Positions 254 to 12,845 of a stretch of DNA of 12,969 nucleotides are shown in pieces (position 1 is the stretch's first letter; each line of letters starts with the position of its first letter). Under the pieces are notes generated by a model. It worked only from the letters and a program-made list of their open reading frames with translations. It was not told the DNA's origin and ran no database searches. Position numbers and translations under genes: made by a program. The stretch is from positions 1 through 12,969 of the forward strand of contig JALUVB010000075.1 of NCBI GenBank assembly GCA_027021085.1, in the 5' to 3' direction. This DNA is from a bacterium. GTDB taxonomy: Bacteria; CAIJMQ01; JAADFP01.

Positions 254-512
254 TTTAGACTGTAGACTATAGACCTTAGACGTTAGACTAGGAGGATAGT
301 AAACAGTGAACGGTGAATGGTGAGAAAGTAGCGGGTAGCGAGTAGATAGTAGCGAGGGGAACTATAGTAAACAGTGAACAGTAAGCAGTGAACGGTGAAT
401 GGTAACTCGGTATCCCGGTTCCCTGGTAATCCTGGTTTTTTGGTAAAGGGGATAGGTTTCGCAAGAATGACAAGAAACCAGTCCGCATGTCATGTCTGCG
501 AAAGCAGGTATC
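254..512 (+). repeat. composite repeat copy 1: 7-bp and 8-bp tandem arrays ending in a REP-like hairpin
   Basis: This fills most of the 397-bp spacer before the nitroreductase gene. In order: five NNTAGAC heptamers (254-288); four NNNGTRA heptamers (296-323); four RGTAGNN heptamers (327-354); six NNNGTRA heptamers (364-405); a looser array in which GGT recurs at 409, 417, 425, 434 and 442 (about 8 bp period); a decayed palindrome ending in AATGACA (about 450-472); and a REP-like hairpin (492-511). Positions 354-415 match 8246-8307 exactly on the opposite strand. Positions 371-512 match 12546-12687 without gaps at 131 of 142 sites. No gene is visible in 155-551 apart from repeat-derived frames. 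Confidence 0.9.
492..511 (+). repeat. REP-like hairpin with GAAA loop
   Basis: ATGTCTGC (492-499), loop GAAA (500-503), GCAGGTAT (504-511). The stem is 8 bp if G494-T509 and T495-G508 pair as G-U wobbles in RNA. The related hairpin at 12667-12686 has Watson-Crick pairs at the same positions. The ATG at 492 opens a frame that runs into the nitroreductase, but this is the repeat and not the gene start. Confidence 0.75.
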
Positions 513-538
513 CAGGATAGGCTCCTGGGATTGAAAAG

Positions 539-547
539 GGAGGTGAT
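539..547 (+). promoter_or_regulatory. strong Shine-Dalgarno site of the nitroreductase gene
   Basis: GGAGGTGAT is a long match to the 16S rRNA 3' end. GGAGG ends 8 nt before the ATG at 552. It fixes the start at 552 rather than at the in-frame ATG at 492 inside the upstream repeat. Confidence 0.85.
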
Positions 548-551
548 AAAG

Positions 552-1043
552 ATGGATGCATTAAGAGTATTAAAAGAGAGGAGAAGCATAAGGAAATTTC
601 AGGCAAAAGAAATAGCGGGTGAAATTATCGAGGATATCATTGACTGCGGCAGATTGGCAGCTACGGCTGTCAACATCCAGCCCTGGGAGTTTATCGTGGT
701 AACGCAGCCCGAGATACGAAAGAGAATAGCGGAGATAACTGACCACGGTAAATTTATTAAAGATGCCCCGGTTTGCATCGTGGTGTTTTGCCGGGATACA
801 AAGTACTACCTGGAAGACGGTTCTGCTGCCACGGAAAACATACTCCTGGCAGCAAAAGCGCACGGACTGGGAAGCTGCTGGGTAGCGGGGGATAAGAAGC
901 ACTACGCGGAAGATATACGGAAGCTGCTAAAAGTTCCGACAGGTTACAAGCTGGTAAGCTTGATTCCCATAGGATATCCGGCAGAATCTCCCCAACCAGC
1001 AAAGAGAAGCCTGCAGGAAGTTATGCACCGGGAGCAGTGGTAA
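552..1043 (+). CDS. nitroreductase family protein (FMN-dependent oxidoreductase)
   Basis: The protein has 163 residues, at the short end for the nitroreductase (Nitro_FMN_reductase) fold. Residues 9-15 (ERRSIRK) are the usual N-terminal FMN-phosphate-binding stretch, followed by LAATAVNIQPWEFIVV (35-50), the conserved segment around the flavin site. GLGSCW (105-110) and LIPIGYP (137-143) match the C-terminal core. Members reduce nitroaromatics, quinones, flavins or enones with NAD(P)H, normally as FMN-bound dimers in the cytoplasm; the substrate here cannot be told. The start is set by the strong ribosome binding site at 539-547. It is the only clear plus-strand gene in the window, and it converges on the gene ending at 1061 with a 17-bp gap. 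Confidence 0.9.
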   Translation: MDALRVLKERRSIRKFQAKEIAGEIIEDIIDCGRLAATAVNIQPWEFIVVTQPEIRKRIAEITDHGKFIKDAPVCIVVFCRDTKYYLEDGSAATENILLAAKAHGLGSCWVAGDKKHYAEDIRKLLKVPTGYKLVSLIPIGYPAESPQPAKRSLQEVMHREQW

Positions 1044-1057
1044 CCATATCCACTGTT
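1033..1057. terminator. possible hairpin between convergent genes
   Basis: AGCAGTGG (1033-1040) pairs with CCACTGTT (1050-1057) across a 9-nt loop that contains the nitroreductase stop codon; one of the 8 pairs is G-T. It lies where the two convergent genes end, so it could slow transcription from either side. There is no T-run on either strand, so this is not a canonical intrinsic terminator. Confidence 0.3.
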
Positions 1058-1060
1058 CAA

Positions 1061-2146
1061 TTACTTGCGGATATACGCAAATAAGTAGTTCACCGCTATG
1101 GGAAGGAGAACACCTATACTGATAAGGAGAAGGATACGCAGAATTAAAAAGATGGTTAGCCTGGATTCGGGCTTGCTGCTTACCACCAAAGGGAGTATGC
1201 TCCTTCTCTTTTCAAACTGCAGGGTTCCATTGTAATTGATTACCTCTCCCAGTATATACACCTCATCCCCTACAGTGATTCCCCGCAGGGTATCCCTCTC
1301 CTCGCCGATAATGCTGCCTCCCCGGTTAAGCACCTTTGGCTCAAAGAAAGCCCCGGCAGGATTTACCCCGATTTCCCCCGTATCGTCCTCTACGCTAAAA
1401 GGGACCCATTTTCTTTCCTGCACATCACGTGCATAGCGGTAGTGTGTACCTGGGCTATGGAATAGTTCCCGTCTGCGTGTGTAGTGCACGTAATCGTAAT
1501 ACACGCATTTTAAGCCATATACCACTTCCGGTGCTCCGCAGAGCACCTTACCGCACACTTCAAAAAAACCTTCCTGCCTGATATCAGCAATCTTGGTAGT
1601 GGGGGTCTTTTTCACGAAAGCAAGCACCACAAAAAACCTTACGATAAAGTATAAACATATGGTTTCCCCTACACTGATAATTATCCGGGAAGCAATAACC
1701 CAAATATCGTTTGCAGGATGAATATATCGGGAAAAAAGAACTGCTCCCAACCCGCTTGATACGATGAGAAGACCCAATACTATACTGCCCAGGTGTCTCT
1801 TCAGCCAGGAACTCTCCCGGGCAATTACCACTCCTCCGACTTTTTTACCTGTTTTAAGGTCTGTGCCGCAGGAGATGCAGAAAGTGGCTTCCGGGGGTAA
1901 TGCATTCCGGCAATAAGGGCAACACACCTTTTCTGTAACCTCTGTTTTTTCCTGTTCACTGCGGGGGAAAAATGTCTGGAAAAGGGGAACCAGGCGGGCA
2001 AATTTCCATTCATCCTTTCCTTCTCTGCTTATAAAATCTTCCGGTAAAACTCTTTTTTCCTTTATCCAGTTTTGCAACGTTTCTGTGCTCACCGGGCCGT
2101 AGATACTCCCATCTGGCTTTTTAACTTTCCACCTTTCATCTGCCAT
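1061..2146 (-). CDS. membrane protein with GYF_2, zinc ribbon and MUL1/GIDE-like domain
   Basis: 361 residues. Residues 5-55 resemble a GYF_2 domain (IYGPVSTETLQNWIKEKRV, with a conserved W in DEWKFA). Residues 76-93 form a zinc ribbon, with C76, C79, C90 and C93. Hydrophobic segments follow at about 119-139, 149-178 and 329-356. The region 185-318, between the last two, contains GLKCVYYDYVHY, RKWVPFSVEDDTGEIGVNPAGAFF and a GEERDTLRGITVGDEVYILGEV stretch. That pattern resembles the region next to the membrane in mitochondrial MUL1/GIDE E3 ligases (Pfam GIDE family). The RING finger of the eukaryotic protein is absent. I assign the domains from memory, so the MUL1-like call is an inference; function is unknown. 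AAGGAGGAA stands just before the ATG. The aldo/keto reductase ends 15 bp upstream, suggesting an operon. Confidence 0.75.
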   Translation of the reverse strand: MADERWKVKKPDGSIYGPVSTETLQNWIKEKRVLPEDFISREGKDEWKFARLVPLFQTFFPRSEQEKTEVTEKVCCPYCRNALPPEATFCISCGTDLKTGKKVGGVVIARESSWLKRHLGSIVLGLLIVSSGLGAVLFSRYIHPANDIWVIASRIIISVGETICLYFIVRFFVVLAFVKKTPTTKIADIRQEGFFEVCGKVLCGAPEVVYGLKCVYYDYVHYTRRRELFHSPGTHYRYARDVQERKWVPFSVEDDTGEIGVNPAGAFFEPKVLNRGGSIIGEERDTLRGITVGDEVYILGEVINYNGTLQFEKRRSILPLVVSSKPESRLTIFLILRILLLISIGVLLPIAVNYLFAYIRK

Positions 2147-2151
2147 ATGTA

Positions 2152-2160
2152 TTCCTCCTT
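2152..2160 (-). promoter_or_regulatory. Shine-Dalgarno site of the GYF/MUL1-like gene
   Basis: The minus strand reads AAGGAGGAA in the 15-bp gap after the aldo/keto reductase stop codon. It is spaced normally from the ATG at 2146 and supports that start. Confidence 0.8.
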
Positions 2161-2161
2161 A

Positions 2162-3277
2162 TCATTCCCCGGCAAAGATTTGTTCAGCTTCTCTCATTTT
2201 TTGGCTTATCCGGATATTGTAGGGACACCTTTTCTCACATTTCCTGCACTCCACGCATGCATCTGCCTTTATCTCCAGGTTTCTGTAGTTTTTAATAAGC
2301 TCCTTATCCTTTTTCTGCTGCCATTTAGTCAAAAGGCGCATTATGGAAGGAATAGGGATGTTTTGGGGACAGGGGAGACAGTATCCACATTGCCGGCATA
2401 AATCCTTTCCCCACCTTTTTGCCTCCTCTTCAAAATACCTTATTTCTTCCGGAGTAAGAGCATATGCCCTGTCTCCTGCTTTTACAAGTTCTTCCAGGTG
2501 GGCAAGCGTGCCCACACCAGGAGTGACTGTATGCACGTAAGGATTCTGCACCACGTAGCGGACAAGCTTTAAGGGAGAAAGCCCCTTACCATCAGCACCT
2601 TTCAGGGTAAGCGCTCCTCCTCCCAGGGGCTTCATCACTGTTAACCCGATACCGAATTTCTTAATCAGGGGAAAGACTCTCTGTGAAGTTATCTTCAAAT
2701 CTTCACCATCAGAAGCAACTCTTTTTTGCTGGAGAATATTGTAGGCTAAAGTCAAAACATCCACATCGCCTGTTTCAATCATTTTCTTCACTACCTCAAA
2801 GCTGCCATGCGTGGAAAACCCGATAAATTTCACCTTGCCTTGCCTTTTTGCTTTTTTCAAAACTTCGTAGAATCCTCCCTCCACCACTTTCTGATAGGCC
2901 TCAGGCGAGGTAACATCATGCAGCTGATATATGTCTATGCTATCAACCTGCAATCTCTGCAAACTTTCTTCCAGGGCAATTTCAATATCTTCGGGATTCT
3001 CTGACTTTTGCCAGGCATGAGTCCTGCTTAAAATTATAACATCACTCCTCCTTTTCTTCATAACCTCCCCTACCCCTTGCTCCGCCATCCCGTTTCCATA
3101 GGAGCAAGCAGTATCTATTATGTTCACTCCCAGGTCTAAGGCTCTATCTATAACTCTCTCCATTTCCTGTATCCCCTCTTTCCCTCTGGCAAAAAGGCCT
3201 TCCCGGCCAAAGCCAAGAGTTCCTATCCCCACCACCGAGACCTTTAAGCCCGTCCTCCCCAGCACCCTGTATTCCAT
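2162..3277 (-). CDS. aldo/keto reductase with C-terminal ferredoxin-type [4Fe-4S] domain
   Basis: 371 residues. Residues 1-290 form an aldo/keto reductase barrel: YRVLGRTGLKVSVVGIGT at the start, IIDTACSYGNG (53-63) and YQLHDV (117-122). Of the usual catalytic tetrad, Asp55, Tyr60 and His120 are present, but the lysine position reads Arg85 (ILSRTH; codon AGG). The C-terminus has two cysteine clusters, C294/C297/C300/C303 and C341/C344/C347/C351-Pro, as in ferredoxin-linked aldo/keto reductases (COG1453 type), which are common in anaerobes. It is likely a cytoplasmic redox enzyme of unknown substrate. The ATG at 3277 has GGAGA 6 nt upstream; the open frame continues to 3457 but upstream translation is not protein-like. 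It probably heads an operon with the following membrane protein. Confidence 0.9.
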   Translation of the reverse strand: MEYRVLGRTGLKVSVVGIGTLGFGREGLFARGKEGIQEMERVIDRALDLGVNIIDTACSYGNGMAEQGVGEVMKKRRSDVIILSRTHAWQKSENPEDIEIALEESLQRLQVDSIDIYQLHDVTSPEAYQKVVEGGFYEVLKKAKRQGKVKFIGFSTHGSFEVVKKMIETGDVDVLTLAYNILQQKRVASDGEDLKITSQRVFPLIKKFGIGLTVMKPLGGGALTLKGADGKGLSPLKLVRYVVQNPYVHTVTPGVGTLAHLEELVKAGDRAYALTPEEIRYFEEEAKRWGKDLCRQCGYCLPCPQNIPIPSIMRLLTKWQQKKDKELIKNYRNLEIKADACVECRKCEKRCPYNIRISQKMREAEQIFAGE

Positions 3278-3298
3278 ATTTATCTCCATGACACTATT

Positions 3299-3304
3299 AT
3301 TATA
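3299..3304 (-). promoter_or_regulatory. possible -10 box for the aldo/keto reductase operon
   Basis: The minus strand reads TATAAT 21 bp before the ATG at 3277, which would give a leader of about 15 nt containing the GGAGA ribosome binding site. The -35 region (TTATAA or TTTATA at 16-17 bp spacing) is a poor match. Confidence 0.45.
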
Positions 3305-3359
3305 CGACCAAAAAGGTAATTTATAAATAATCAGGGAGTGAGAGCAAGAAATCGGGGAT

Positions 3360-3411
3360 ACAGTAGGCAGCAGGCAAAGGAGAGTAGCAAGCAGCAGGTT
3401 CTGGTTCCCCG
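3360..3411. repeat. degenerate heptamer tract
   Basis: Units such as CAGTAGG, CAGCAGG, GAGTAGC and AAGCAGC follow one another at about 7 bp, then CTGGTTCC. This looks like a decayed relative of the arrays at 327-360 and 409-444. It lies in the 172-bp gap between the PHP gene stop and the aldo/keto reductase start. Nothing else is evident in that gap. Confidence 0.4.
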
Positions 3412-3449
3412 TTGTGGGGGTTGGATTCTCTGATACACGCCCAGGTAGA

Positions 3450-4451
3450 CTACACAATCCAGAAAGGATTGGTGAAAAGCCAGGGTTTATTCTTGAGATA
3501 TCCTTCCAGTCTGTAGACTCCTTTCTTTTTCAGCTCTATTTCACCTTTACTATCTTCCATCTCTTTCTCTGTTTCCCCGTTTCTTACCAGGCGAAAGAGT
3601 GCTTTGATAGGCGAGGTAAAATACAGTCTGCGGGCAGAGGCAAGCTCGATTCTATCTCCGGGGAGATTTCCCTCCTCGGTGAATATCTGAAACCCCCGTG
3701 CATCCCCTATCCTGTCCAGGGCAAAGAAAGAATGCCCTTCTTTCAGTGCTTGATAAATTTTCTCCTTATCCCTGGGGAATTCTCCCCTGAGTTCTTCGCA
3801 CCAGACATGGGTTCTGAGCGTTTTGAAGGCAAAGGTGTAAGAAGAGATGGAAACAGGCAAAAATTTATTCCCATGAATATCAAGCCCGGCAATTCCCACC
3901 ACCTTTCTCTTCTGGCAAAGAGTATCCCAGAGTCCAAGTATTTTTTCCGAAGGCCCGCGTAGTCCCCTGGTGGGAAAGAGGAAATGAAAGGGCAGATTGA
4001 ATAGGTGCACCTTTTTTATCCAGTCGTACATAAGTGACCAGATTTCTATGCCCTGGAAATCCCGGTAAAGGTAAAAGTCTTCCCAGGGATGAGGAGGAAC
4101 AAGAAGCATTTTATTGCCTTTATGAAAAGGATGGGTCACGAAGCCAAATCCTCCCTGCTGGTTTACTTTGTCTATGTATGCCTGCGGATTGGCAAATTGG
4201 TGGAAATCTATCTCCTCCCGGATATCTAAAGCCAGGTAATGTGCCTCATCCGGGCTTATCTCCTCCCCTACCATGACCATCACCTCTCCATGCCATCCCT
4301 CTTTTTCTTTTAACTGCAGGGTATCATGGTCAGTAATCACCAGGAAATCAATTCCCGCTGCTTTTCCTGCCTTGACTACCTGGGCAAAATTACCCGTGCC
4401 ATCCGAGCAGTCAGTATGGATATGTATTACTCCGATGTATTCGTGTAGCAT
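3450..4451 (-). CDS. PHP-domain metal-dependent phosphoesterase
   Basis: 333 residues from the ATG at 4451. The PHP (polymerase and histidinol phosphatase) metal-site motifs are clear: HIHTDCSDG (10-18), ITDHDT (39-44), GEEIS (62-66), THPFH (106-110) and GLDIHG (189-194, giving the late Asp-x-His pair). Family members hydrolyse phosphoesters with two or three bound metal ions; the substrate cannot be told. The C-terminal 80 residues are probably a separate small beta-rich domain. It is the last gene of the tldD operon and overlaps the upstream membrane-protein gene by 25 bp. GGAG stands 10 nt before this ATG. GTG codons at 4475 and 4496 are alternative starts, but the PHP homology begins just after 4451. 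Confidence 0.85.
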   Translation of the reverse strand: MLHEYIGVIHIHTDCSDGTGNFAQVVKAGKAAGIDFLVITDHDTLQLKEKEGWHGEVMVMVGEEISPDEAHYLALDIREEIDFHQFANPQAYIDKVNQQGGFGFVTHPFHKGNKMLLVPPHPWEDFYLYRDFQGIEIWSLMYDWIKKVHLFNLPFHFLFPTRGLRGPSEKILGLWDTLCQKRKVVGIAGLDIHGNKFLPVSISSYTFAFKTLRTHVWCEELRGEFPRDKEKIYQALKEGHSFFALDRIGDARGFQIFTEEGNLPGDRIELASARRLYFTSPIKALFRLVRNGETEKEMEDSKGEIELKKKGVYRLEGYLKNKPWLFTNPFWIV

Positions 4452-5407
4452 TTTCGTATTTCTCCGCCTTTCCACATGTATATCACTCCCCCCCACAGGC
4501 TGGTGAATAAAGTAATCAAATAAAGAGATAAAGAAAGCGCCAGGGCATCCACTTCACTTACTGCGGGCAAAGAAGAAAAGAAGAAAACAAAAGCCCATTC
4601 TCTTGTTCCCAGTCCACTAATGCTGACAGGTATTGACATAATCACAGCTACTAGAGGGAAGAAAAGGAAAAAGTAAACGGCGGGAATGGGAAGATGAAAG
4701 GCAAGAGAGATGAAGTAAACGATGATTATCATCTGGAATTGCACCAGGAGAGAGATTAAATAGGCTTTAAGTAGTGCACGGGGAGATTGCCTGTAGGTTT
4801 GGAAAGATTGAAAGAGATTCTGTATTTTTTCTCCCAACCTGAGCCATTTTATATGGTACAAAAAGGAAAGAAATTTATGGAATTTATGGTTGAGCAGCAG
4901 AAAGAATATAATCAGCAACAAGAAAGTGGCGCCTACTATAAGGGGGAAAAATTCCCGGGCAGCTGTTCTCTTCAGGTTTAAGAGAAGAGCCACAAACGCT
5001 ATGCTTAAAAGCCCCATGAACCCTATGACCCTGTCCATGAACACGGAGGTAAATGAGGAAGACATTTTTCCGGTTTTTTTACCCAGGTAATAGAACTTAA
5101 CCAGGTCACCCCCTACCACGCCGGGAAGAAAATTTGAGAAGAAGAATCCTATATAGGTAAGAGTAAAGAGGTCGGAAAAGGAAAGATGAATATTCTGCGC
5201 TTTCAAGAGCCATCCCCATCTTATGATTCCCCAGATTAAAGCCAGGAAGAAAAGGGCTGTTGCCGCGGCTAACCATAAATAATTGGCCTCCCTGGCATAT
5301 TCCGGCAACTTCCCCAGATTTTCTCTGCCAATTTGAAGAAAAAGGAGGTAGATAAGTATGCCGCTTACCCCGGCCCTGATAATAAAGGAAATCGTTTTCT
5401 TCATCAT
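4427..5407 (-). CDS. LPG_synthase_TM (UPF0104/AglD2-like) integral membrane protein
   Basis: 326 residues, very hydrophobic, with about eight membrane segments (roughly 7-25, 43-63, 80-97, 126-144, 153-173, 213-235, 243-263 and 288-311). Conserved features of the lysylphosphatidylglycerol synthase transmembrane family (PF03706) are visible: SNFLPGVVGGDLVKFYYL (91-108), DRVIGF (125-130) and SISGLGTREWAF (262-273). In MprF this region moves lysyl-phosphatidylglycerol across the membrane, but stand-alone proteins like this lack the synthase domain and their substrate is unknown; lipid or polyprenol-linked sugar translocation is possible. The ATG at 5407 overlaps the tldE TGA as ATGA, so translational coupling is likely. 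A second ATG follows directly at 5404. Confidence 0.85.
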   Translation of the reverse strand: MMKKTISFIIRAGVSGILIYLLFLQIGRENLGKLPEYAREANYLWLAAATALFFLALIWGIIRWGWLLKAQNIHLSFSDLFTLTYIGFFFSNFLPGVVGGDLVKFYYLGKKTGKMSSSFTSVFMDRVIGFMGLLSIAFVALLLNLKRTAAREFFPLIVGATFLLLIIFFLLLNHKFHKFLSFLYHIKWLRLGEKIQNLFQSFQTYRQSPRALLKAYLISLLVQFQMIIIVYFISLAFHLPIPAVYFFLFFPLVAVIMSIPVSISGLGTREWAFVFFFSSLPAVSEVDALALSLSLYLITLFTSLWGGVIYMWKGGEIRKCYTNTSE

Positions 5408-6699
5408 CCACCCAGTATATTTACCCTATCTATCAGTATATAAGGAGCAGGATTAGCGGGGAAAGGACGGAAGTCGGACGATATTTCTTTTATTTGCCGG
5501 ATAATCTCCTGGAAATTGCCTCCTGCCATGGCACCCTTAATCGGATAAGCAAATTCTCCTTTCTCAATTTTATAAGCTAAATCCAGGGGCACAGAAAATT
5601 CCCCGGAAACAGGGTGAGGAGAAAAGGAGATTATATCGGCAAAAATACCTTCTTCCAAATCACTTGCAATTTCCCTGAATTTTCTCTTCCCTCTGCTCAA
5701 TACAAGGTTAGTGGGAGAAATCCCCCCGCCTGTTGAAGCATGTGCTGTATTCTCAACGCCATCTTTATGAGCCGTATAGGAATTATGGAAATACGTTTGC
5801 AGGATTCCCTTTTCCACTACGGTTATTTTTCTATGAGGCACTCCTTCCCCATCGCAGGGGGAAGAGGCCAATCCCCCGGGTATTCCTCCATCATCTTTCA
5901 AGGTAAATAAATCCTGTGCGATTTTCTGCCCTATCTTGCTTCCCATGAATGACCTCTTTTTCTGAATATCCTCAGCGTTGAGAGAACGGGCAAATGTCTG
6001 CAACAATATATAAGTGGAAAGAGGGGAGAGTATAAGCGGATAAAACCCTGTTTTTACTGCTTTTTTATTAAGGTAGCCTTCAGCCCGTCTCACCACTCGC
6101 TCCGGCAGCTCTTCTGCAAAGGATTCTTCCCATTGGTGGGATTTCTCAAAGTCATAAAAAGAACCTGCCCCGTCTTTCTGCCAGATTATTGCTTCCAGGC
6201 TAATTTCCAGGAAAGTAACAGGCAGGCTAACTTCTACACCAAGGGAATTTACCACTTCCCATTCCTGGCAACTTGCCTCCAGAGAACCACTTAATACCAC
6301 GGAGGGGACAATTCCTTTTGCTTTTTTAATAATTCCCCGGGCTATTTTTAATAAATTCTCCCCTTTTATTTTTTCCAGGCAGGGTGAGTATAAACCTTCC
6401 ACAGGAGATATTTTTCGGGGTAAAGGTAGAGAATGGAAATCAGGGTCAGGTTCGGCATTCAGCGTTGTTTCCCGAATATAGGCGGCAAGGTCATTCCTCC
6501 AGGTTTCAAAGTTAAACAAACCTTTCTTCTTATCCTTGAAAGCCCTGATAATATGATAGTTAAACTCTTCCTCTTTATAGGAATGTATTTCGGAATTCTT
6601 AATGTCCACTTCTTTTCTCCAGCCTCTGCGGGTATTAACCTCTACCTGTTCCAGCTGTTTTCTTTCCAAAGCCTGGAGAATTTCTTTTCCTTTACTCAA
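5404..6699 (-). CDS. tldE: TldE/PmbA-family metalloprotease subunit
   Basis: 431 residues, close to the 450 of E. coli PmbA/TldE. Diagnostic stretches are DPDFHSLP (85-92), the KDDGGIPGG loop (268-276), DGEGVPHRKITVVEKG (283-298) and HPVSGEFS (362-369). As in TldE generally there is no HExxxH motif; the metal site is in the partner TldD. The TldD/TldE heterodimer is a cytoplasmic protease that trims small unfolded peptides, for example in microcin B17 maturation and CcdA degradation in enterobacteria. The start is a TTG at 6699 with GGGAG 7 nt upstream, only 1 bp after the tldD stop, which fits equimolar expression. The gene ends in a 4-bp overlap with the next. Confidence 0.93.
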   Translation of the reverse strand: MSKGKEILQALERKQLEQVEVNTRRGWRKEVDIKNSEIHSYKEEEFNYHIIRAFKDKKKGLFNFETWRNDLAAYIRETTLNAEPDPDFHSLPLPRKISPVEGLYSPCLEKIKGENLLKIARGIIKKAKGIVPSVVLSGSLEASCQEWEVVNSLGVEVSLPVTFLEISLEAIIWQKDGAGSFYDFEKSHQWEESFAEELPERVVRRAEGYLNKKAVKTGFYPLILSPLSTYILLQTFARSLNAEDIQKKRSFMGSKIGQKIAQDLFTLKDDGGIPGGLASSPCDGEGVPHRKITVVEKGILQTYFHNSYTAHKDGVENTAHASTGGGISPTNLVLSRGKRKFREIASDLEEGIFADIISFSPHPVSGEFSVPLDLAYKIEKGEFAYPIKGAMAGGNFQEIIRQIKEISSDFRPFPANPAPYILIDRVNILGG

Positions 6700-6700
6700 A

Positions 6701-8080
6701 CTATTTCTCCCTTCCTCCCACTAACATCCCCTCCACAAACATGAATGGCCCGCCATCATCCACAGGCACTCCCTGTCCTTCTTTACCGCATGTACCCCCA
6801 CTTTCCGAAAGAGTATGCGCCCTGGAACATGCCTTAACCTTAAAAAGTGTCTCCAGGGTAAATCCGGAAAGTGAAACATTACGCAGTAACTTTTTCTTTT
6901 TACCCTTTTCCACCCACCAGGATGAGTCAATATTAAACATAAATTGACCACTTTCGGGAGAGACGTAACCTCCGCTTCCCAATTCCTCCACCAGGATTCC
7001 TTCTCCCACCATATCCATAAGCTCCTCTACGGAGCATTCCCCGGGAGAAAACAATGTATTGCTCATTCTTACCAGGGGAAGGTGGTGATAATCCTGGGCC
7101 CTTCCGTTACCAGTGGGATAAGCCTCCATAAGTGCAGCAGTCTCCAGGCTGTGGAGAAAGCCGCAAACTTTTCCGCTTTCTACAAGCGTTTTCTTCTGAG
7201 CCGGAACTCCCTCCGAGTCAAAATAGTAGGAGCCGTAAGCAGCGGGATAGGTAGCATCATCTACCAGGGTTATACACTCGGACCCTATTCTTTCACCCGT
7301 TTTGTCTTTTAATAAAGATTGCCCGTGGATTATGTGGTCCCCCTCCAGATTATGCCCCAGGGCTTCATGTGCCAGGATACCAGCTACCTGGGGAGAAATA
7401 ATAACCTTGAACATCCCGGAAGGGGGCGGAGAAGCATCCAGGAGCTCAACAGCCCTATCCGCCACAGGCAAGGGAAAGCTCTCTTCCCGTAATTCCCTGA
7501 CAATCTCCCAGCCTCCCAGGGCAGCACGACTCTTATAAGAGGATTGTTTCAACCCGTCTTTCTCTGCCACCACGTTGAGAAAGACACGAATCCGGGGCAA
7601 TTCCTGCTCCACCCTGAAGCCAAGAGAATTTATTACTGTCTCTTTCAACCAGGACTCACCGTACACCAGCCGGGTATGCACTATACCTTTCCGCTTACGT
7701 GCAGCACCCTCCAAATTTTTCAGCGTTTCACTCTTTTCTTTGAAATTTATCCTCCTGAAATCTTCTTTTACCGCGTGTCTCTTTGTCTCCCTTACCGGAG
7801 ATAGGGAGAAGATACGGGAATTTCCCGGCAAAAGTTCACCGGTAGATTCCAGGTTTTTCCACAATCTCTTTATTTGTTCCCTGCCTCCGTTAGTAAGGGA
7901 AGCAAAGCTCCAGCCTCCCTTTTTCAGCACGCGCATAGCTATCCCTGAACGAATGGCAGAATTTACTGATTCAATCCTCCCGTCTTCTATAACCAGCGAT
8001 AGAGTATGTGTTTCCTCCCATCTCACCTCTCCGAACTTAATACGGGAGGAAGATACTAACTCTTCAAATAAATCTAACAT
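6701..8080 (-). CDS. tldD: TldD-family zinc metalloprotease, catalytic subunit
   Basis: 459 residues. It carries the metal-binding HEALGH motif (238-243) followed by NLEGDHI, and the late GTCGKEGQGVPV segment (429-440), whose Cys431 matches the cysteine metal ligand of TldD. DDATYPAAYGSYYFDSEGVP (274-293) is another family landmark. Together with TldE it should form the peptide-trimming complex. First gene of a four-gene minus-strand operon. The ATG at 8080 lacks a clear Shine-Dalgarno sequence (only AAGGGA about 12 nt away). Upstream lies a 270-bp spacer filled by repeats. No small precursor-peptide gene that might be its substrate is visible on either side. Confidence 0.95.
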   Translation of the reverse strand: MLDLFEELVSSSRIKFGEVRWEETHTLSLVIEDGRIESVNSAIRSGIAMRVLKKGGWSFASLTNGGREQIKRLWKNLESTGELLPGNSRIFSLSPVRETKRHAVKEDFRRINFKEKSETLKNLEGAARKRKGIVHTRLVYGESWLKETVINSLGFRVEQELPRIRVFLNVVAEKDGLKQSSYKSRAALGGWEIVRELREESFPLPVADRAVELLDASPPPSGMFKVIISPQVAGILAHEALGHNLEGDHIIHGQSLLKDKTGERIGSECITLVDDATYPAAYGSYYFDSEGVPAQKKTLVESGKVCGFLHSLETAALMEAYPTGNGRAQDYHHLPLVRMSNTLFSPGECSVEELMDMVGEGILVEELGSGGYVSPESGQFMFNIDSSWWVEKGKKKKLLRNVSLSGFTLETLFKVKACSRAHTLSESGGTCGKEGQGVPVDDGGPFMFVEGMLVGGREK

Positions 8081-8112
8081 ATGGGCTGTTTTTTCCCTTT
8101 TCTACTTCTCTC

Positions 8113-8339
8113 TTGTCATTCCTGTGCAGGCCTGCCCGTTCTCCCGACGGATGTCGGGGGAAAGCAGGCGGGCATGACATATAGAGCCGGTTACTTACCA
8201 TTCTTGCAAATCCTAAAATCCCTTAGAACCTATCCCAGGAAACCAGGATACCGAGTTACCATTCACCGTTCACTGCTTACTGTTCACTGTTTACTATAGT
8301 TCCCCTCACTACTCACTACTCGCTACTCACTACTTTCTT
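8113..8339 (-). repeat. composite repeat copy 2 (inverted): heptamer arrays and nested palindrome
   Basis: Read on the minus strand, the order is RGTAGNN-type heptamers (8339-8305), six NNNGTRA heptamers (8297-8256), an 8-bp GGT array (about 8255-8226), 50 bp of unassigned sequence, and a palindromic block (8177-8113). Positions 8246-8307 are an exact inverted copy of 354-415 (62 bp). The module lies between tldD and ispH and fills the 270-bp spacer 8081-8350. Any promoter for tldD must lie in or beside it; I see no convincing one. Confidence 0.88.
8126..8167 (-). repeat. nested palindromic element, 42 bp exact copy of 12363-12404
   Basis: On the minus strand a CCCGAC-ATCC-GTCGGG hairpin (8158-8143) sits inside an outer pairing of CCTGC with GCAGG. 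The same 42 bases occur on the plus strand at 12363-12404. Flanking TGTCAT/ATGACA ends resemble those of the other REP-like elements. Confidence 0.8.
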
Positions 8340-8350
8340 ACCATTCTGCC

Positions 8351-9175
8351 TCATAATCTTTTCAGGTATTCTACCACTTCCCGTATGACCCATTCGGGAG
8401 TAGAGGCTCCCGCAGTTATTCCCATTTTCCCAGTACCGCCAAAATCCATCCCGCTTAATTCCTTGCTTCTTTCTATCCACCAGGTTCTCTTTCCCTCTTC
8501 TGTAGATATCTTATATAATCGGCGAGTATTAGCACTGTTTTTACCCCCGATAACTATTACACCATCTACCTCCTTCAATATATCTCTAAGAGCCTGTTGT
8601 CTGGCAGCAGTAGCATTGCAAATGGTATGAAGAAACTTTAATTCTTCCACTCTATCAAGCAACAAGGCAACTATTTCCTTAACCCGGGAAATGTTCATGG
8701 TAGTCTGGCAGACTATTCCTATCCGCTTAGGAAGACTCTGGGGAACTTCTTCTGCGCAGGAAAAAATCAGAGAAGAATTCTTAAGGTTACCGGCAATACC
8801 CTTTACTTCGGGATGCTCTGAATCTCCTATTATCACTACAGTATATCCTTCTCTTTCCAGTCTTTTTGCCATATCCTGCGCTCTCTTCACAAAGGGACAG
8901 GTCACATCTATAACCTCATCCGCCTCCCGGAGCACTTCTGTAAATTTCTCCGGGGGCAGACCATGGGAAGGTATAACCACCCTTTTACCTTTCACATCTG
9001 CTTTCCCGGTAAGCGGCAAAACCCCCTCTCTTTCCAGCTTTTCAATCATGGGAGGATTGTGAATAAGAGGACCCAGGGTGTAAACTTTTCCTTTCTTAGC
9101 TTTTTCCCGGACTATTTCTACCGCTCTCTCCACCCCAAAACAAAATCCTGCATCGCGAGCAATTTTAATTTCCAT
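8351..9175 (-). CDS. ispH: 4-hydroxy-3-methylbut-2-enyl diphosphate reductase (IspH/LytB)
   Basis: 274 residues, a typical length for the short, non-proteobacterial type. It performs the last step of the MEP pathway, reducing HMBPP to isopentenyl and dimethylallyl diphosphate on a [4Fe-4S] cluster in the cytoplasm. The three cluster cysteines are Cys12 (AGFCFGV), Cys93 (VTCPFV) and Cys186 (TICNAT). Substrate-site residues are also present: His39, His71 (SHG), His121-Pro-Glu123, KNSAN (212-216) and GITAGASTPEWVI (252-264). The ATG at 9175 follows the previous stop by 3 bp, with no clear Shine-Dalgarno sequence, so it is probably translated by coupling. It is the last gene of the MFS-kinase-hxlB-like cluster. 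Confidence 0.96.
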   Translation of the reverse strand: MEIKIARDAGFCFGVERAVEIVREKAKKGKVYTLGPLIHNPPMIEKLEREGVLPLTGKADVKGKRVVIPSHGLPPEKFTEVLREADEVIDVTCPFVKRAQDMAKRLEREGYTVVIIGDSEHPEVKGIAGNLKNSSLIFSCAEEVPQSLPKRIGIVCQTTMNISRVKEIVALLLDRVEELKFLHTICNATAARQQALRDILKEVDGVIVIGGKNSANTRRLYKISTEEGKRTWWIERSKELSGMDFGGTGKMGITAGASTPEWVIREVVEYLKRL

Positions 9176-9178
9176 AAT

Positions 9179-9727
9179 TTATAGATTGAAGTGCCGGGCA
9201 TACATTTCTTCGTCGTTTATCTGCAGTTTATGGTAGAGAATATTGACTATCCCTTCCAGGACAAAAAATAACACCTGTTCAAAAAGAGAATTAAGGGGCT
9301 GAGAAGAAACCGAGGCAGAAAGCGATTTGAGAGAACGGGGAATTAAAACCGTGTGACTGCAATATTTATAGAGAGGAGCAGAAGAATTACCCGTTACAGA
9401 AACCACCTCCCCCCCTAACTTGTTGGCTTTAACCGCCATATCAACAGTCCGCTCCCTGTTTGCCAACCCGGAAAGAATAAGAAGCAAATCACCCCTTTTG
9501 AAAGAAGGGGTTAACATTTCTCCTACAAAATACACCTCTTTTCCAAAATGCATCAGGCGGACAGCAAACATCTTACCCACCAGCCCAGTACGCCCCTCCC
9601 CGTAGATAAACACCCGCGGAGCATTTTCTATTCTCTCCAGCAGGCATTGTATATCTCCCTCTTTGATTTTGCCTAAGACAGTTCTGATTTCGCCCGATAT
9701 TTTCCCCACACTTTCTGCCAGATTCAT
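9179..9727 (-). CDS. hxlB: SIS-domain protein, probable 6-phospho-3-hexuloisomerase
   Basis: 182 residues, the usual size of 6-phospho-3-hexuloisomerase (PHI/HxlB), which converts arabino-3-hexulose 6-phosphate to fructose 6-phosphate in the ribulose monophosphate pathway. Support: VFIYGEGRTGLVGKMFAVRL (39-58, usually GAGRSG), HFGKEVYFVGEMLTP (60-74), NSLFEQVLFF (146-155) and the terminal MYARHFNL. The phosphate-binding SIS motif, normally SGSGET, reads SGLANRERT (86-94), so activity or substrate may have shifted. No 3-hexulose-6-phosphate synthase gene is in the window. The ATG at 9727 overlaps the kinase stop as ATGA, indicating coupling. The family call is fairly firm; the exact reaction is inferred. 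Confidence 0.8.
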   Translation of the reverse strand: MNLAESVGKISGEIRTVLGKIKEGDIQCLLERIENAPRVFIYGEGRTGLVGKMFAVRLMHFGKEVYFVGEMLTPSFKRGDLLLILSGLANRERTVDMAVKANKLGGEVVSVTGNSSAPLYKYCSHTVLIPRSLKSLSASVSSQPLNSLFEQVLFFVLEGIVNILYHKLQINDEEMYARHFNL

Positions 9728-10908
9728 AGTTTATCCTGAGGAAGTATTATCTTAAATTCCGTGCCTTTTCCCACTTCGCTTCTTACCCTGACCTCTCCCC
9801 CATGTGCTTCTACCACCATCTTGCAAAAAGGCAACCCAAGCCCTGTGCCCTCAATTCCGCCCTCTTCATCCTTCCCTATTGTCCTGAACTTTTCGAAAAG
9901 CCTGGAAATCTCCTCGGGAGGTATTCCTCTTCCTTCATCTCTTATCTTGAAGAAAAAATGGTTATTTTCTTCCCCCCATTCCCAGCTTATTTTCTTACCG
10001 GGAGGAGTAAATTTTATAGCATTATTGAGCAGGTTGGAAAGCACCCTTTTGAGCAGTTTCTTATCCCCGTTTATCACAGATTTTTCCCTTCCTTTGTAAT
10101 TTATTTCCAGGTTTTTCTTTTTCCAGAAAATCTCCTGCTCTTTAACTACCTCCTGTAAAAGCAGGCCAAAATCAAATTTCTCTATAGAGAGCGGCACACT
10201 ACCCTCTTCCAGCCTGGTAATCCCGAGCAAATTCCCCACCATCTGCTCCAGATTTCTTGCCGCGCTCTCCATGTTCTGGGCTAACTGATTTTTCACTTCG
10301 GGAGGAAGCTTTGCATCTTTCCACATCGACAAAGCAGTAAGAATAACCGTAAGGGGCGATTTCATATCATGTACCACCATGTGAGTGAGGTCATCCTTTA
10401 ACCTGTCCAGCCTTTTGAGGGCCTCGTTTTGCTCCTTAAGCATATTTCTCATGGTGTAAAAATACACGGAGCTCATGATGGAAACCTCGTTATGCAGCAA
10501 TATATCCACTGCAAAGGTAACAGAGATTACCTTTCCCTTCTCCGGGTAAGCCTCGAATAAATAAGGGTAAAACGATTCTTCCAGAAGGTGAAGTATTATC
10601 ACCAGTTCTTCAAAGGAAAAGCCTCTTTCCACATACTCGCGGGCAAGCGAGGCTATCTTTTTATAATGTTCCTCCCAATTCCCCGAGATAAGCCCCTGCA
10701 AAAAAATTTCCACCCTTCTCTCCAGCTCCTTCTCTATTTCCTCTCCCTTCAAAAACCCATTTTCCCCCAGCTGCTTTTGATACTTTAATGCCCATTTCCG
10801 GGCTATTTCTTTTTTAAAAGGGGTAAACAGCTTACCACAGCTCTGCAGGGTAGGAGTAAACGGAGTCAGGTCTAAGGTAAATTTTTCAAATTCTATGACT
10901 TCTTTCAT
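9724..10908 (-). CDS. sensor histidine kinase with RsbR-like helical N-terminal domain
   Basis: 394 residues without membrane segments, so cytoplasmic. Residues 30-155 are helical, with GLISGNWEEHYKKIASLAREYVERGFSFEELV resembling the RsbRD_N/globin-like sensor domains of stress-response regulators; this assignment is tentative. A short coiled stretch (155-172) leads into HisKA, with the phosphorylated His180 in VVHDMKSPL. The ATPase domain shows the N box (SNLLNNAIKF, 291-300), DEGRGIP (324-330), F box FEKFRT (338-343) and GTGLGL (354-359). It should autophosphorylate and pass phosphate to a response regulator, none of which is encoded nearby. The start is the ATG at 10908, 37 bp after the MFS gene, with a weak AGAGAG before it. 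Confidence 0.9.
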   Translation of the reverse strand: MKEVIEFEKFTLDLTPFTPTLQSCGKLFTPFKKEIARKWALKYQKQLGENGFLKGEEIEKELERRVEIFLQGLISGNWEEHYKKIASLAREYVERGFSFEELVIILHLLEESFYPYLFEAYPEKGKVISVTFAVDILLHNEVSIMSSVYFYTMRNMLKEQNEALKRLDRLKDDLTHMVVHDMKSPLTVILTALSMWKDAKLPPEVKNQLAQNMESAARNLEQMVGNLLGITRLEEGSVPLSIEKFDFGLLLQEVVKEQEIFWKKKNLEINYKGREKSVINGDKKLLKRVLSNLLNNAIKFTPPGKKISWEWGEENNHFFFKIRDEGRGIPPEEISRLFEKFRTIGKDEEGGIEGTGLGLPFCKMVVEAHGGEVRVRSEVGKGTEFKIILPQDKL

Positions 10909-10945
10909 CTCTCTTTTATAGAACGGCTTAGTAATCTAAAGTATA

Positions 10946-12106
10946 TCAGAGTTTACGCCGGATAGCCAGAAGGAGAAAGGCAATCCCCCCCATAACAGCG
11001 CCAAAAATGAAGGCAAATTCCACACCCACCCTATCCCAGAGAATCCCCATGATAATCGAGGATAAAAACAGGGTGATTCCGGTGACAGCATGGTAAACAC
11101 CGTATGCTGTACCCAGATGAGATTTATCTACCAGGTCTCCCACCATTGCCCTCAGGTTTCCATCGCTCATGCCATAGAAAAGCCCGTAAAACACAATAAG
11201 CAGCCAGGCAAATTTCACATCTTTCATAAAGGCAAATCCAAGGTAAATAAGGCCGTAAAGAAGAAAGGCAATTTCTATTAGCTTCTTCCTCCCCCATTTA
11301 TCCGAAAGCAAACCTGCCGGGATACTGAAAAGAGAATAGGAAACATTGAAAACCATCCAGAATATGGGAATTAAGTTTATGGATAATCCTGCACTTTTTG
11401 CCCTAAGGATTAAAAAAGCATTGGAAGAATTTCCCAGTGAAAAAAAGAACATTATTACAAGGAAATAACGAAAGGAGGGGGTAAACTCCTTAAAAGTTGT
11501 GTGAAGGGGAAGGACTACTTTCTTGGCTGCATATTTATCCCCCGGCACATCTATCACTGCACTGAGCACCATTATTGCAATAATTCCCGGGATAAAAGAT
11601 ATAAGAAATACGGGGCGGGGATTGCCCCGGAAAAGCGGAAGTAAGAGAAAAGCAAGCAGAGGGCCCACCACCGCACCTAAGGTGTCCATGGCACGGTGAA
11701 TTCCAAACGCCTTGCCCCTTCCCTTTTCCCCGGCGGAAAGAGAGATTAAGGCATCCCGGGGAGCGGTCCTTATCCCTTTTCCCACCCGGTCAATAAACCG
11801 CGTGCTCAGTGCCTGAATCCCCGAGTGAACCAGGGAAAACAAGGGTTTGGTAATATTGGAGAGGAGGTAGCCAGCTATTACTAATTTTTTTCTCTTTTTT
11901 ATCCTGTCCGAGAACCATCCCGAGAAGAGTTTAAAGAAAGAAGCAGAAGATTCGGCAAGTCCCTCAATCAAGCCGATAAAGCTCCGGCTGAGCCCTAAGG
12001 TAGCAGCAAAGAACACCGGCAGAAGGGGATAAATCATCTCAGAAGAGATATCCGTGAAAAAGCTGGTTAAACCCAGTAGAATAATATTCCTTCTGCCTCT
12101 CTTCAT
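10946..12106 (-). CDS. major facilitator superfamily transporter
   Basis: 386 residues with about twelve hydrophobic segments. The loop between segments 2 and 3 reads SGWFSDRIKKRKK, the MFS motif A form, and its half-repeat SIPAGLLSDKWGRKK follows in the second half. DRVGKGIRTAPRDALI and GIHRAMDTLGAVVGPL mark a group of bacterial MFS proteins of unknown substrate; efflux is a plain guess. I start it at the ATG at 12106 (MKRGRRNIILLGLTSFF). A TTG at 12142 in the same frame would add 12 residues, but that stretch contains a promoter-like sequence. No Shine-Dalgarno sequence precedes 12106. First gene of a cluster with the kinase, the hexuloisomerase-like gene and ispH. Confidence 0.88.
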   Translation of the reverse strand: MKRGRRNIILLGLTSFFTDISSEMIYPLLPVFFAATLGLSRSFIGLIEGLAESSASFFKLFSGWFSDRIKKRKKLVIAGYLLSNITKPLFSLVHSGIQALSTRFIDRVGKGIRTAPRDALISLSAGEKGRGKAFGIHRAMDTLGAVVGPLLAFLLLPLFRGNPRPVFLISFIPGIIAIMVLSAVIDVPGDKYAAKKVVLPLHTTFKEFTPSFRYFLVIMFFFSLGNSSNAFLILRAKSAGLSINLIPIFWMVFNVSYSLFSIPAGLLSDKWGRKKLIEIAFLLYGLIYLGFAFMKDVKFAWLLIVFYGLFYGMSDGNLRAMVGDLVDKSHLGTAYGVYHAVTGITLFLSSIIMGILWDRVGVEFAFIFGAVMGGIAFLLLAIRRKL

Positions 12107-12113
12107 ATTAGAG

Positions 12114-12142
12114 ATTAAACCACATAGCCACCCTATATTCAA
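12114..12142 (-). promoter_or_regulatory. candidate sigma-70 promoter of the MFS-kinase-hxlB-ispH cluster
   Basis: The minus strand carries TTGAAT (12142-12137), a 17-bp spacer and TTTAAT (12119-12114). Transcription would start about 7 nt further on, near 12107, directly before the ATG at 12106. The mRNA would then be leaderless or almost so, which fits the absence of a ribosome binding site. Confidence 0.45.
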
Positions 12143-12305
12143 TGAGAAATATGGGAAATAGTGAGTAGCGGGTAGCGAGGAGGGATTTTAGACTGTGGAC
12201 TATAGACTTTAGACCATAGACTGAGAGGACAGTGAACAGTAAATAGTGAGCAGGGGCTGGTATCTTGGTAGTCCTGGGTTCCTGGTTTCTTGGAGAAGAA
12301 TATGG

Positions 12306-12325
12306 ATTCCCGCTTTCGCGGGAAT
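12306..12325 (+). repeat. perfect REP-like hairpin
   Basis: ATTCCCGC, loop TTTC, GCGGGAAT, followed by GACA. This palindrome type is widespread in bacterial intergenic DNA and produces the spurious peptide WIPAFAGMT when translated. REP elements of this sort are often spread by RAYT transposases; none is encoded in this window. Confidence 0.85.
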
Positions 12326-12362
12326 GACAAGAGAGAAGCAAAAAGGAGAAAAGCCAGCCCGT

Positions 12363-12414
12363 CTGCTTTCCCCCGACATCCGTCGGGAGAACGGGCAGGC
12401 CTGCGAAAGCAGGC
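12363..12414 (+). repeat. nested palindromes: CCCGAC hairpin beside GCCTGC-GAAA-GCAGGC hairpin
   Basis: A hairpin CCCGAC-ATCC-GTCGGG (12372-12387) is followed by GCCTGC-GAAA-GCAGGC (12399-12414). The first 42 bp (12363-12404) are identical to the minus strand of 8126-8167. Confidence 0.8.
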
Positions 12415-12423
12415 ATCCAGGAT

Positions 12424-12495
12424 TTTAGACCTTAGACCGTAGACTGTAGACTGGAAGTACAGTGAGCAGTAGTGAGTAGTGGGTAGATAGTAGTG
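12424..12495 (+). repeat. heptamer arrays NNTAGAC and RGTAGNN
   Basis: Four NNTAGAC units (12424-12451) lead through TGGAAGT into an ACAGTGA unit (12460-12466) and four RGTAGNN units (12468-12495). Confidence 0.85.
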
Positions 12496-12503
12496 AGGGG
12501 GAT

Positions 12504-12728
12504 TTTAGACTTTAGACCATAGACTATAGACGTTAGACTGGGGAAACAGTGAACAGTAAGCAGTGAACGGTGAATGGTAACTCGGTATCCTGGTTTCCTG
12601 GTAATCCTGATTTCTTGTTAAAGGGGATAGATTTCACAGGAATGACAAGAAACCAGTCCGCATGTCATGCCTGCGGAAGCAGGCATCAAAGAAAGTAGTG
12701 AGTAGATAGTAGTGAGTAGTTAGGGAGG
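12504..12728 (+). repeat. composite repeat copy 4: near copy of 371-512 with flanking heptamers
   Basis: Five NNTAGAC units (12504-12538), five NNNGTRA units (12546-12580), an 8-bp GGT array (about 12584-12620), a decayed palindrome, a hairpin ATGCCTGC-GGAA-GCAGGCAT (12667-12686) and RGTAGNN heptamers (12694-12728). Positions 12546-12687 align without gaps to 371-512 with 11 mismatches, 10 of them transitions. Confidence 0.9.
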
Positions 12729-12775
12729 ATATGAGATACAGGCGGGGGCACAGGTGGAACTAACAACTCAGGACT

Positions 12776-12791
12776 CCCGACATATGTCGGG
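12776..12791. repeat. 16-bp perfect palindrome
   Basis: CCCGACATATGTCGGG is fully self-complementary. Its arms match those of the CCCGAC...GTCGGG hairpins at 8143-8158 and 12372-12387, so it may be a solo copy of that inner element. It is flanked by CAACTC on both sides. Confidence 0.65.
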
Positions 12792-12845
12792 ACTCACAAC
12801 TCTTACACCATATACTGGGAAGAAGCCAGATGCAGGCGGGGGGAA

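Follow-up and report, generated by a model that had tools for sequence, protein, structure and literature searches.

Three spacers of one bacterial contig are built from the same short parts, and the question raised by this locus is whether they are copies of a composite element that spreads as a unit or have been assembled from separate modules. The window analysed here is the complete contig C75 (12,969 bp) of the metagenome-assembled genome (MAG) G000, which comprises 1,934,367 bp in 307 contigs. A first-pass annotation of its sequence had described, in the spacers at 254-512, 8113-8339 and 12157-12728, three families of 7-bp units (NNTAGAC, NNNGTRA and RGTAGNN), a GGT-centred array of about 8 bp and palindromes similar to repetitive extragenic palindromic (REP) elements, and all of these parts were found again in the three spacers. 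For array counts, the window was taken together with 40 fetched stretches of the same genome to give a sample of 480 kb. Because the contigs had been picked mostly for carrying matches, densities per kb are enriched and the robust results are ratios and orders. A second genome, G001, served for comparison; it is a separate MAG of the same genus (86% complete, NCBI label Caldisericota), with conserved gene order and a median protein identity of 88% to G000. From these comparisons we think it probable that the spacers are an old intergenic mosaic of REPs and heptamer arrays, whose modules recombination has shuffled and made uniform inside each genome, while slippage has removed identical neighbouring units.

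A strict lag autocorrelation over periods 2-20 gave 121 arrays of period 7 in the 480 kb, above a background of three N runs. Unrelated periods gave 0-5 arrays and period 14 appeared as a harmonic of 7; with a looser cut, 206 period-7 arrays were found versus 2 in shuffled sequence. No tandem period other than seven is clearly over-represented. Counts of chains with three or more units gave 94 for family A (TAGAC), 83 for B (AGTRA) and 62 for C (GTAG), confirming the three heptamers of the first-pass annotation, and 32 for a fourth 7-bp family that it had overlooked, D (AACT); the shuffles predict 0, 0, 0.2 and 0.4 chains respectively. The families had been called unrelated, and for two pairs this is not fully so, because many of their junctions keep the 7-bp register (D to A in 8 of 8 cases, B to C in 9 of 19). 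Across the whole of G000 there are 183 matches to a four-unit A pattern and 172 to a four-unit B pattern (101 and 88 of them, respectively, within the fetched stretches), and copies are spread over about 45 contigs rather than confined to one. That such arrays are chance low-complexity sequence or an artefact of assembly could be suspected from the fragmentation of G000 and from the frequent position of mosaics at contig ends. This explanation has practically no probability left, given that shuffling yields essentially no arrays and that the separately assembled sister has the same families at orthologous sites, and we ruled it out on these two grounds.

The joints between modules are also recurrent. 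A arrays frequently start behind GGATTT and end in TAGACTGGG, B follows A at a distance of mostly 8-10 bp (46 cases), and B passes without a break into the GGT array, as in AGTGAAT GGTAACTC GGTATCCT GGTTTCCT GGTAATCCT GGTTTCTT. The units of the GGT array measure 8-9 bp. This array opens a conserved unit of about 106 bp, here called the G module, in which it is followed by two REPs, the left one decayed and the right one intact; 30 near-full copies were present in the fetched stretches. The REP consists of a TGTC or CGTC tag, an 8-bp stem starting with AT, a 4-nt loop and a CCA tail. In a scan that fixed GTC, left only the first tag base free and required the AT stem start, the tag was TGTC or CGTC in 39 of 41 REPs of G000 and in 56 of 56 of G001. 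The G000 REPs had an 8-bp stem in 40 of 41 cases and a CCA tail in 33 of 41, with loops GGAA, GAAA or GCAA. Intact pairs within 60 bp were few in G000 (three head-to-head and three tail-to-tail), the left partners being mostly decayed. One intact left REP of the window, ATTCCCGCTTTCGCGGGAAT at 12306-12325, is an exact match to the dRS3 pattern ATTCCC(N8)GGGAAT (PMC3898611). The dRS3 repeat of Neisseria was equated by Di Nocera and colleagues with CGTC-1, a REP family defined in Di Nocera 2013 (PMC3733652), and as judged from its sequence the REP of the mosaic fits this CGTC-1 (dRS3) family. The REP core also matches in unrelated genomes.

Module order was counted between neighbours within 40 bp on the same strand, and compared with permutations in which labels were shuffled within clusters. 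In G000, A preceded B 46 times and followed it once (permutation maximum for A before B, 32), and B preceded G 34 times with no case of the reverse (permutation maximum, 19). C preceded A 22 times and followed it 7 times, and 184 pairs of neighbouring modules lay on the same strand versus 18 on opposite strands. The order is clearly not random genome-wide, and the sub-order of NNNGTRA heptamers, GGT array and palindrome, first noticed within the window, holds throughout G000. However, the idea of a set order has to be restricted to one genome. In G001, A preceded C 18 times and followed it twice, C preceded B 11 times, and A stood directly before B 7 times. The C/A order differs between the two species (Fisher p=6e-6), which indicates that order is set within one genome and does not follow from the parts themselves.

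Spacers at orthologous sites show how this difference is distributed. Among 127 syntenic pairs of adjacent genes, arrays were present in both species in 12 spacers, in G000 only in 3 and in G001 only in 4; the 12 shared spacers compare with 1.9 by chance (p=3e-11). The contents of these spacers are not collinear. Where an orthologous flank could be traced from the gene into the mosaic, the nearest A array often has the same position and orientation in both species, and the next module is the species-typical one: A-B in G000 and A-C in G001 (L046:4995 and L064:15594), A-B-G in G000 and a degraded A followed by C in G001 (L047:3070), or C-A-B in G000 and A-C in G001 (L064:9919 and L071:10412). 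Other sites kept the same series in both species, namely A-C at L055:1608 and A-B-G-D at L061:2852-3108. Sequence comparison at these sites suggests ancestral arrays with replaced neighbours.

If composites had spread whole, the similarities of their parts should be linked. Mantel tests on 20 A-B-G composites gave r=0.05 (p=0.27) for A versus B similarity and r=0.04 (p=0.36) for A versus G, and only B and G were weakly linked (r=0.23, p=0.03). That A is unlinked to B or G speaks against recent spread of whole composites, and spread as one linked unit was rejected as not supported by this test. The first-pass annotation had left two origins open; the spreading composite is not supported, given the missing linkage and the different orders at the same orthologous sites, and repeated slippage and recombination fit better.

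A specific form of unit spread would be a non-autonomous mobile element, similar to a REPIN (REP doublet forming a hairpin) or a miniature inverted-repeat transposable element, which a REP-associated tyrosine transposase (RAYT) would copy whole. G000 does encode one intact IS200-type Y1 transposase of RAYT size (225 aa; L193, on contig C45, at 626-1303; PF01797, E=3e-8). A B array and a REP lie about 370 bp from it, on the downstream side only; a second Y1 match in this genome is only partial. In addition, the REP halves are turned towards one another like those of REPINs, and long copies occur, up to the 91% identity over 152 bp between 369-520 and 12544-12695 of the window. However, no Y1 transposase was detected in the 86% complete G001, although its mosaic is rich, and for CGTC REPs Di Nocera 2013 reports no association with a transposase (PMC3733652). 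The tag, TGTC or CGTC, differs from the GTAG of REPIN/RAYT systems, and the absence of A linkage and the orthologous differences in order count against this explanation as well. Comparison of the sisters, whose spacers are much diverged, revealed neither a clean empty site nor a target duplication; clean empty sites are missing because a spacer with modules in one species usually has them in the other as well. RAYT mobility is possible for the REP part and not supported for the composite, for which we consider it doubtful. The Y1 transposase gene itself adjoins a helicase-like gene.

Within arrays, the variable letters of A are restricted to a few words (TT, TA, CA, CT, TG, GT, CG and AT) with position preferences, and adjacent units tend not to be the same. 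Identical adjacent units in G000 were found in 1 of 176 cases for A (about 29 expected) and in 2 of 104 for C (17.6 expected); they were reduced for B (11 of 168, 33 expected), and for D they were within two standard deviations of expectation (4 of 57, 8.9 expected). After shuffling words within position and at equal array length, the observed numbers were still far below those expected (A 1 versus 18.5, B 11 versus 30, C 2 versus 14), and the deficit persisted in these three families when only distinct word strings were used. Neighbours with one mismatch showed no clear depletion in G000. The avoidance was also found in G001 for A (0 versus 9.1 expected) and C (1 versus 8.5). A higher-order unit of 14 bp as its cause was rejected, as identity at lag 2 was not enriched.

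Perhaps such arrays are written by a dedicated enzyme that measures off 7 nt, for instance through a templated or reverse-transcriptase-like activity, and that adds heptamers of several kinds while avoiding the previous unit. This would agree with the enrichment of period 7 among several motifs of one genome that are unrelated to each other, and among other motifs in related genomes, with an avoidance specific to identical neighbours, and with family switches that can stay in register. On the other hand, no such enzyme was identified, perfect heptamer arrays occur in other phyla, and slippage and recombination account for the data by known processes. We regard such an enzyme as extremely unlikely. 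The more general claim, that the 7-bp period and the neighbour avoidance stem from a process dedicated to writing arrays with a 7-nt ruler, and not from ordinary slippage, and that the mosaic is the accumulated output of this process, we regard as very unlikely.

By bases, 97% of the modules in the fetched stretches are intergenic. The 46 module-bearing spacers have a median length of 421 bp, versus 57 bp for spacers without modules, and hold 48% of the intergenic bases in these match-enriched stretches. No preference of module spacers for convergent, divergent or co-directional genes was found (p=0.30), and the bias in module strand relative to genes was not significant (18:10). A promoter, terminator or other gene-linked element was rejected in view of this lack of orientation preference, and a dedicated role of the mosaic for the adjoining genes is improbable. 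Another functional explanation is that the arrays are maintained as binding sites, at which a regulatory or nucleoid protein, or an RNA, reads a core every 7 bp (21 bp being two helical turns). The conserved cores of 4-5 nt, the strict 7-bp phase, the limited variable words and the position and orientation of arrays often conserved between the sisters are consistent with this, and MacGregor 2015 suggested a regulatory role for TAACTGA heptamers (PMC4679880). However, array content is non-collinear between sisters at about 88% protein identity, spacers with promoters or terminators are not preferred, several unrelated cores occur together, and related genomes have other heptamers. We find this explanation unlikely.

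Recombination and slippage acting on an old mosaic would work as follows. The spacers would hold separate modules, the heptamer arrays A, B, C and D and the GGT-array/REP unit of about 106 bp, with many arrays at ancestral positions common to both sister species. Modules would be copied or exchanged between spacers of one genome through homologous recombination or gene conversion, and this exchange would lead to one species-typical order, C-A-B-G-REP in G000 and A-C-B in G001. Replication slippage would add and remove whole 7-bp units inside an array, and could delete exact duplicates much faster than imperfect ones, so that the surviving neighbours differ.

Several points weigh against this. 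The count of shared array-bearing spacers is partly circular, as only long spacers can hold arrays, and at two shared sites (L062:743 and L054:9986) A has opposite orientations in the two species. The B arrays of G001 show no neighbour avoidance (4 versus 4.8 expected), and B-type arrays in other phyla are often perfect, with many identical neighbours; avoidance is consequently no general rule of heptamers, and there are lineages in which slippage leaves duplicates in place. The copying step, gene conversion, is deduced and not directly observed. Species-specific composites inserting independently at shared hot spots could mimic a concerted order, and the persistence of arrays at shared sites could reflect function instead.

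The excess of heptamers in bacteria still lacks an accepted explanation of why the period is seven, and this lineage is a clean test case, with two sisters of conserved gene order that carry the same modules in the same places and in a different order, and with identical neighbours sharply avoided. Through it, slippage, recombination and transposition could be told apart as origins of the intergenic mosaics of bacteria, and it suggests that module order may evolve in concert across a bacterial genome.

Of the known systems, the closest are the neisserial intergenic mosaic elements (NIMEs), composed of dRS3 and RS repeats, which are likewise intergenic and interleave a CGTC-1 palindrome of dRS3 type with other repeats. 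In contrast, the interleaved parts are here heptamer arrays and the 8-9 bp GGT array, in a strict species-specific order and in a different phylum; the likeness concerns palindrome and layout. The CGTC-1 REPs of Di Nocera 2013, which are mostly head-to-head dimers, share the tag, stem, loop and tail described above; here, intact facing pairs are few owing to the usual decay of the left partner, and heptamer arrays are regularly attached. Heptameric simple sequence repeats (SSRs) are a known, unexplained class in bacteria (PMC4692102, PMC4679880, PMC2700814), with sites common to species while content varies (PMC4692102, PMC4679880); that heptamers are over-represented among bacterial tandem repeats has been on record since 2007 (cited in PMC4692102). 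Like ours, the short tandemly repeated repetitive (STRR) sequences of cyanobacteria, GGGNATC of Xanthomonas, GGGGAYT of Nostoc and TAACTGA of Beggiatoaceae form intergenic 7-bp arrays with degenerate positions. These published motifs were rejected, with zero tandem pairs each of CCCCART, GGGNATC, GGGGAYT and TAACTGA in the 480 kb, and they differ from the present arrays, where several families and REPs are combined in a set order and neighbouring units are non-identical. The pneumococcal BOX element, boxA-boxB(n)-boxC, is likewise a modular composite of intergenic DNA whose internal units vary in number (PMC3049150), but it has terminal inverted repeats, which were not seen in the mosaic, and the mosaic order differs between sisters. 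In the open-access literature, to which the search was directed, we did not find a description of heptamer families joined to REPs in an order specific to the species, or of neighbour avoidance. The parts are of known kinds; their combination, the concerted order and the neighbour avoidance appear to be undescribed.

Among 290 genomes, the four-unit A pattern was found in 11 and the B pattern in 26. G001 has additional families (AAACYCN-like and GATRCAG), and the class's other family (G003, G004 and G006) is also rich in period-7 arrays, with further motifs such as ACAGAAG, AATTAGN, TATGGTT and GTAATYN; some period-7 families of these genomes have identical neighbours (L103-L113, L119-L121). 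An AGTGAAC array recurs in the unrelated genomes G100, G112, G156 and G193, often as perfect tandem copies. TAGAC heptamers were present in 21 IMG/VR contigs, and one virus-labelled contig (L170, 9822-9932) has two TAGACGG-type arrays that converge between genes and could fold into a large hairpin. The joined A-B module matched five contigs of named genomes, one being the sister itself and another a contig that appears to be misbinned. Matches in Kiritimatiellae, Mariniphaga and Bacteroidaceae have a single TAGAC each, look like chance joins, and were discarded. A near-perfect A-B-G-REP composite was seen at about 3112-3144 of L166 (JALUWC010000114.1, labelled Geoglobus sp.); this 3.4-kb contig forms part of an archaeal MAG and most likely comes from Caldisericota by misbinning.

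In the window, heptamer arrays were located by the chain scan and G modules by profile match, unless stated otherwise. The first spacer, on the plus strand, has five TAGAC-NN units of A (256-288, also read in the sequence), a short degenerate array of B-type AGTRA-NN heptamers leading into C (298-321, sequence and loose period-7 scan), four RGTAG-NN units of C (328-353), four AGTRA-NN units of B (366-391) and a G module with GGT array, decayed left REP and right CGTC-type REP (409-514). In the second spacer all modules are on the minus strand: a nested palindrome, CCCGAC(N)GTCGGG inside GCCCG...CGGGC (8126-8173, sequence comparison), the GGT array and REP part of a G module (8168-8261), and four units each of B (8270-8295) and C (8308-8333). 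The third, on the plus strand, contains the series C, A, B, GGT+REP, A, C, A, B, GGT+REP, C. It begins with C-type heptamers (12157-12179, sequence and loose period-7 scan), A (12189-12221), three units of B (12231-12249) and a G module (12259-12419) whose left REP is intact and which also holds a nested palindrome (12357-12396) and the right REP. Four units of A stand directly behind the REP tail GCATCCAGGATTT (12426-12451), followed by four of C (12469-12494), five of A (12506-12538) and three of B (12548-12566), which run on as GGTGAAT GGTAACTC into the GGT array of another G module (12584-12688), with a decayed left REP and the right REP ATGCCTGC-GGAA-GCAGGCAT; four units of C (12695-12720) close the series.

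Inverted copies connect the second and third spacers, with 58 of 58 positions identical between 8235-8292 and 12544-12601 and 98% identity between 8126-8173 and 12357-12404. Palindromes within palindromes were seen at 8134-8173 and 12357-12396. An Rfam scan of the window at gathering thresholds gave zero matches. The gene products of the window are ordinary, comprising a nitroreductase, a GYF-domain protein, an aldo/keto reductase with an Fe-S domain, an LPG-synthase-like membrane protein, a TldD/PmbA pair, LytB/IspH and a SIS-domain protein. Beyond the third spacer, a D array of AACT-NNN heptamers was read directly in the sequence on the plus strand (12757-12808), broken by the palindrome TCCCGACATATGTCGGGA, which looks as if inserted into the array.

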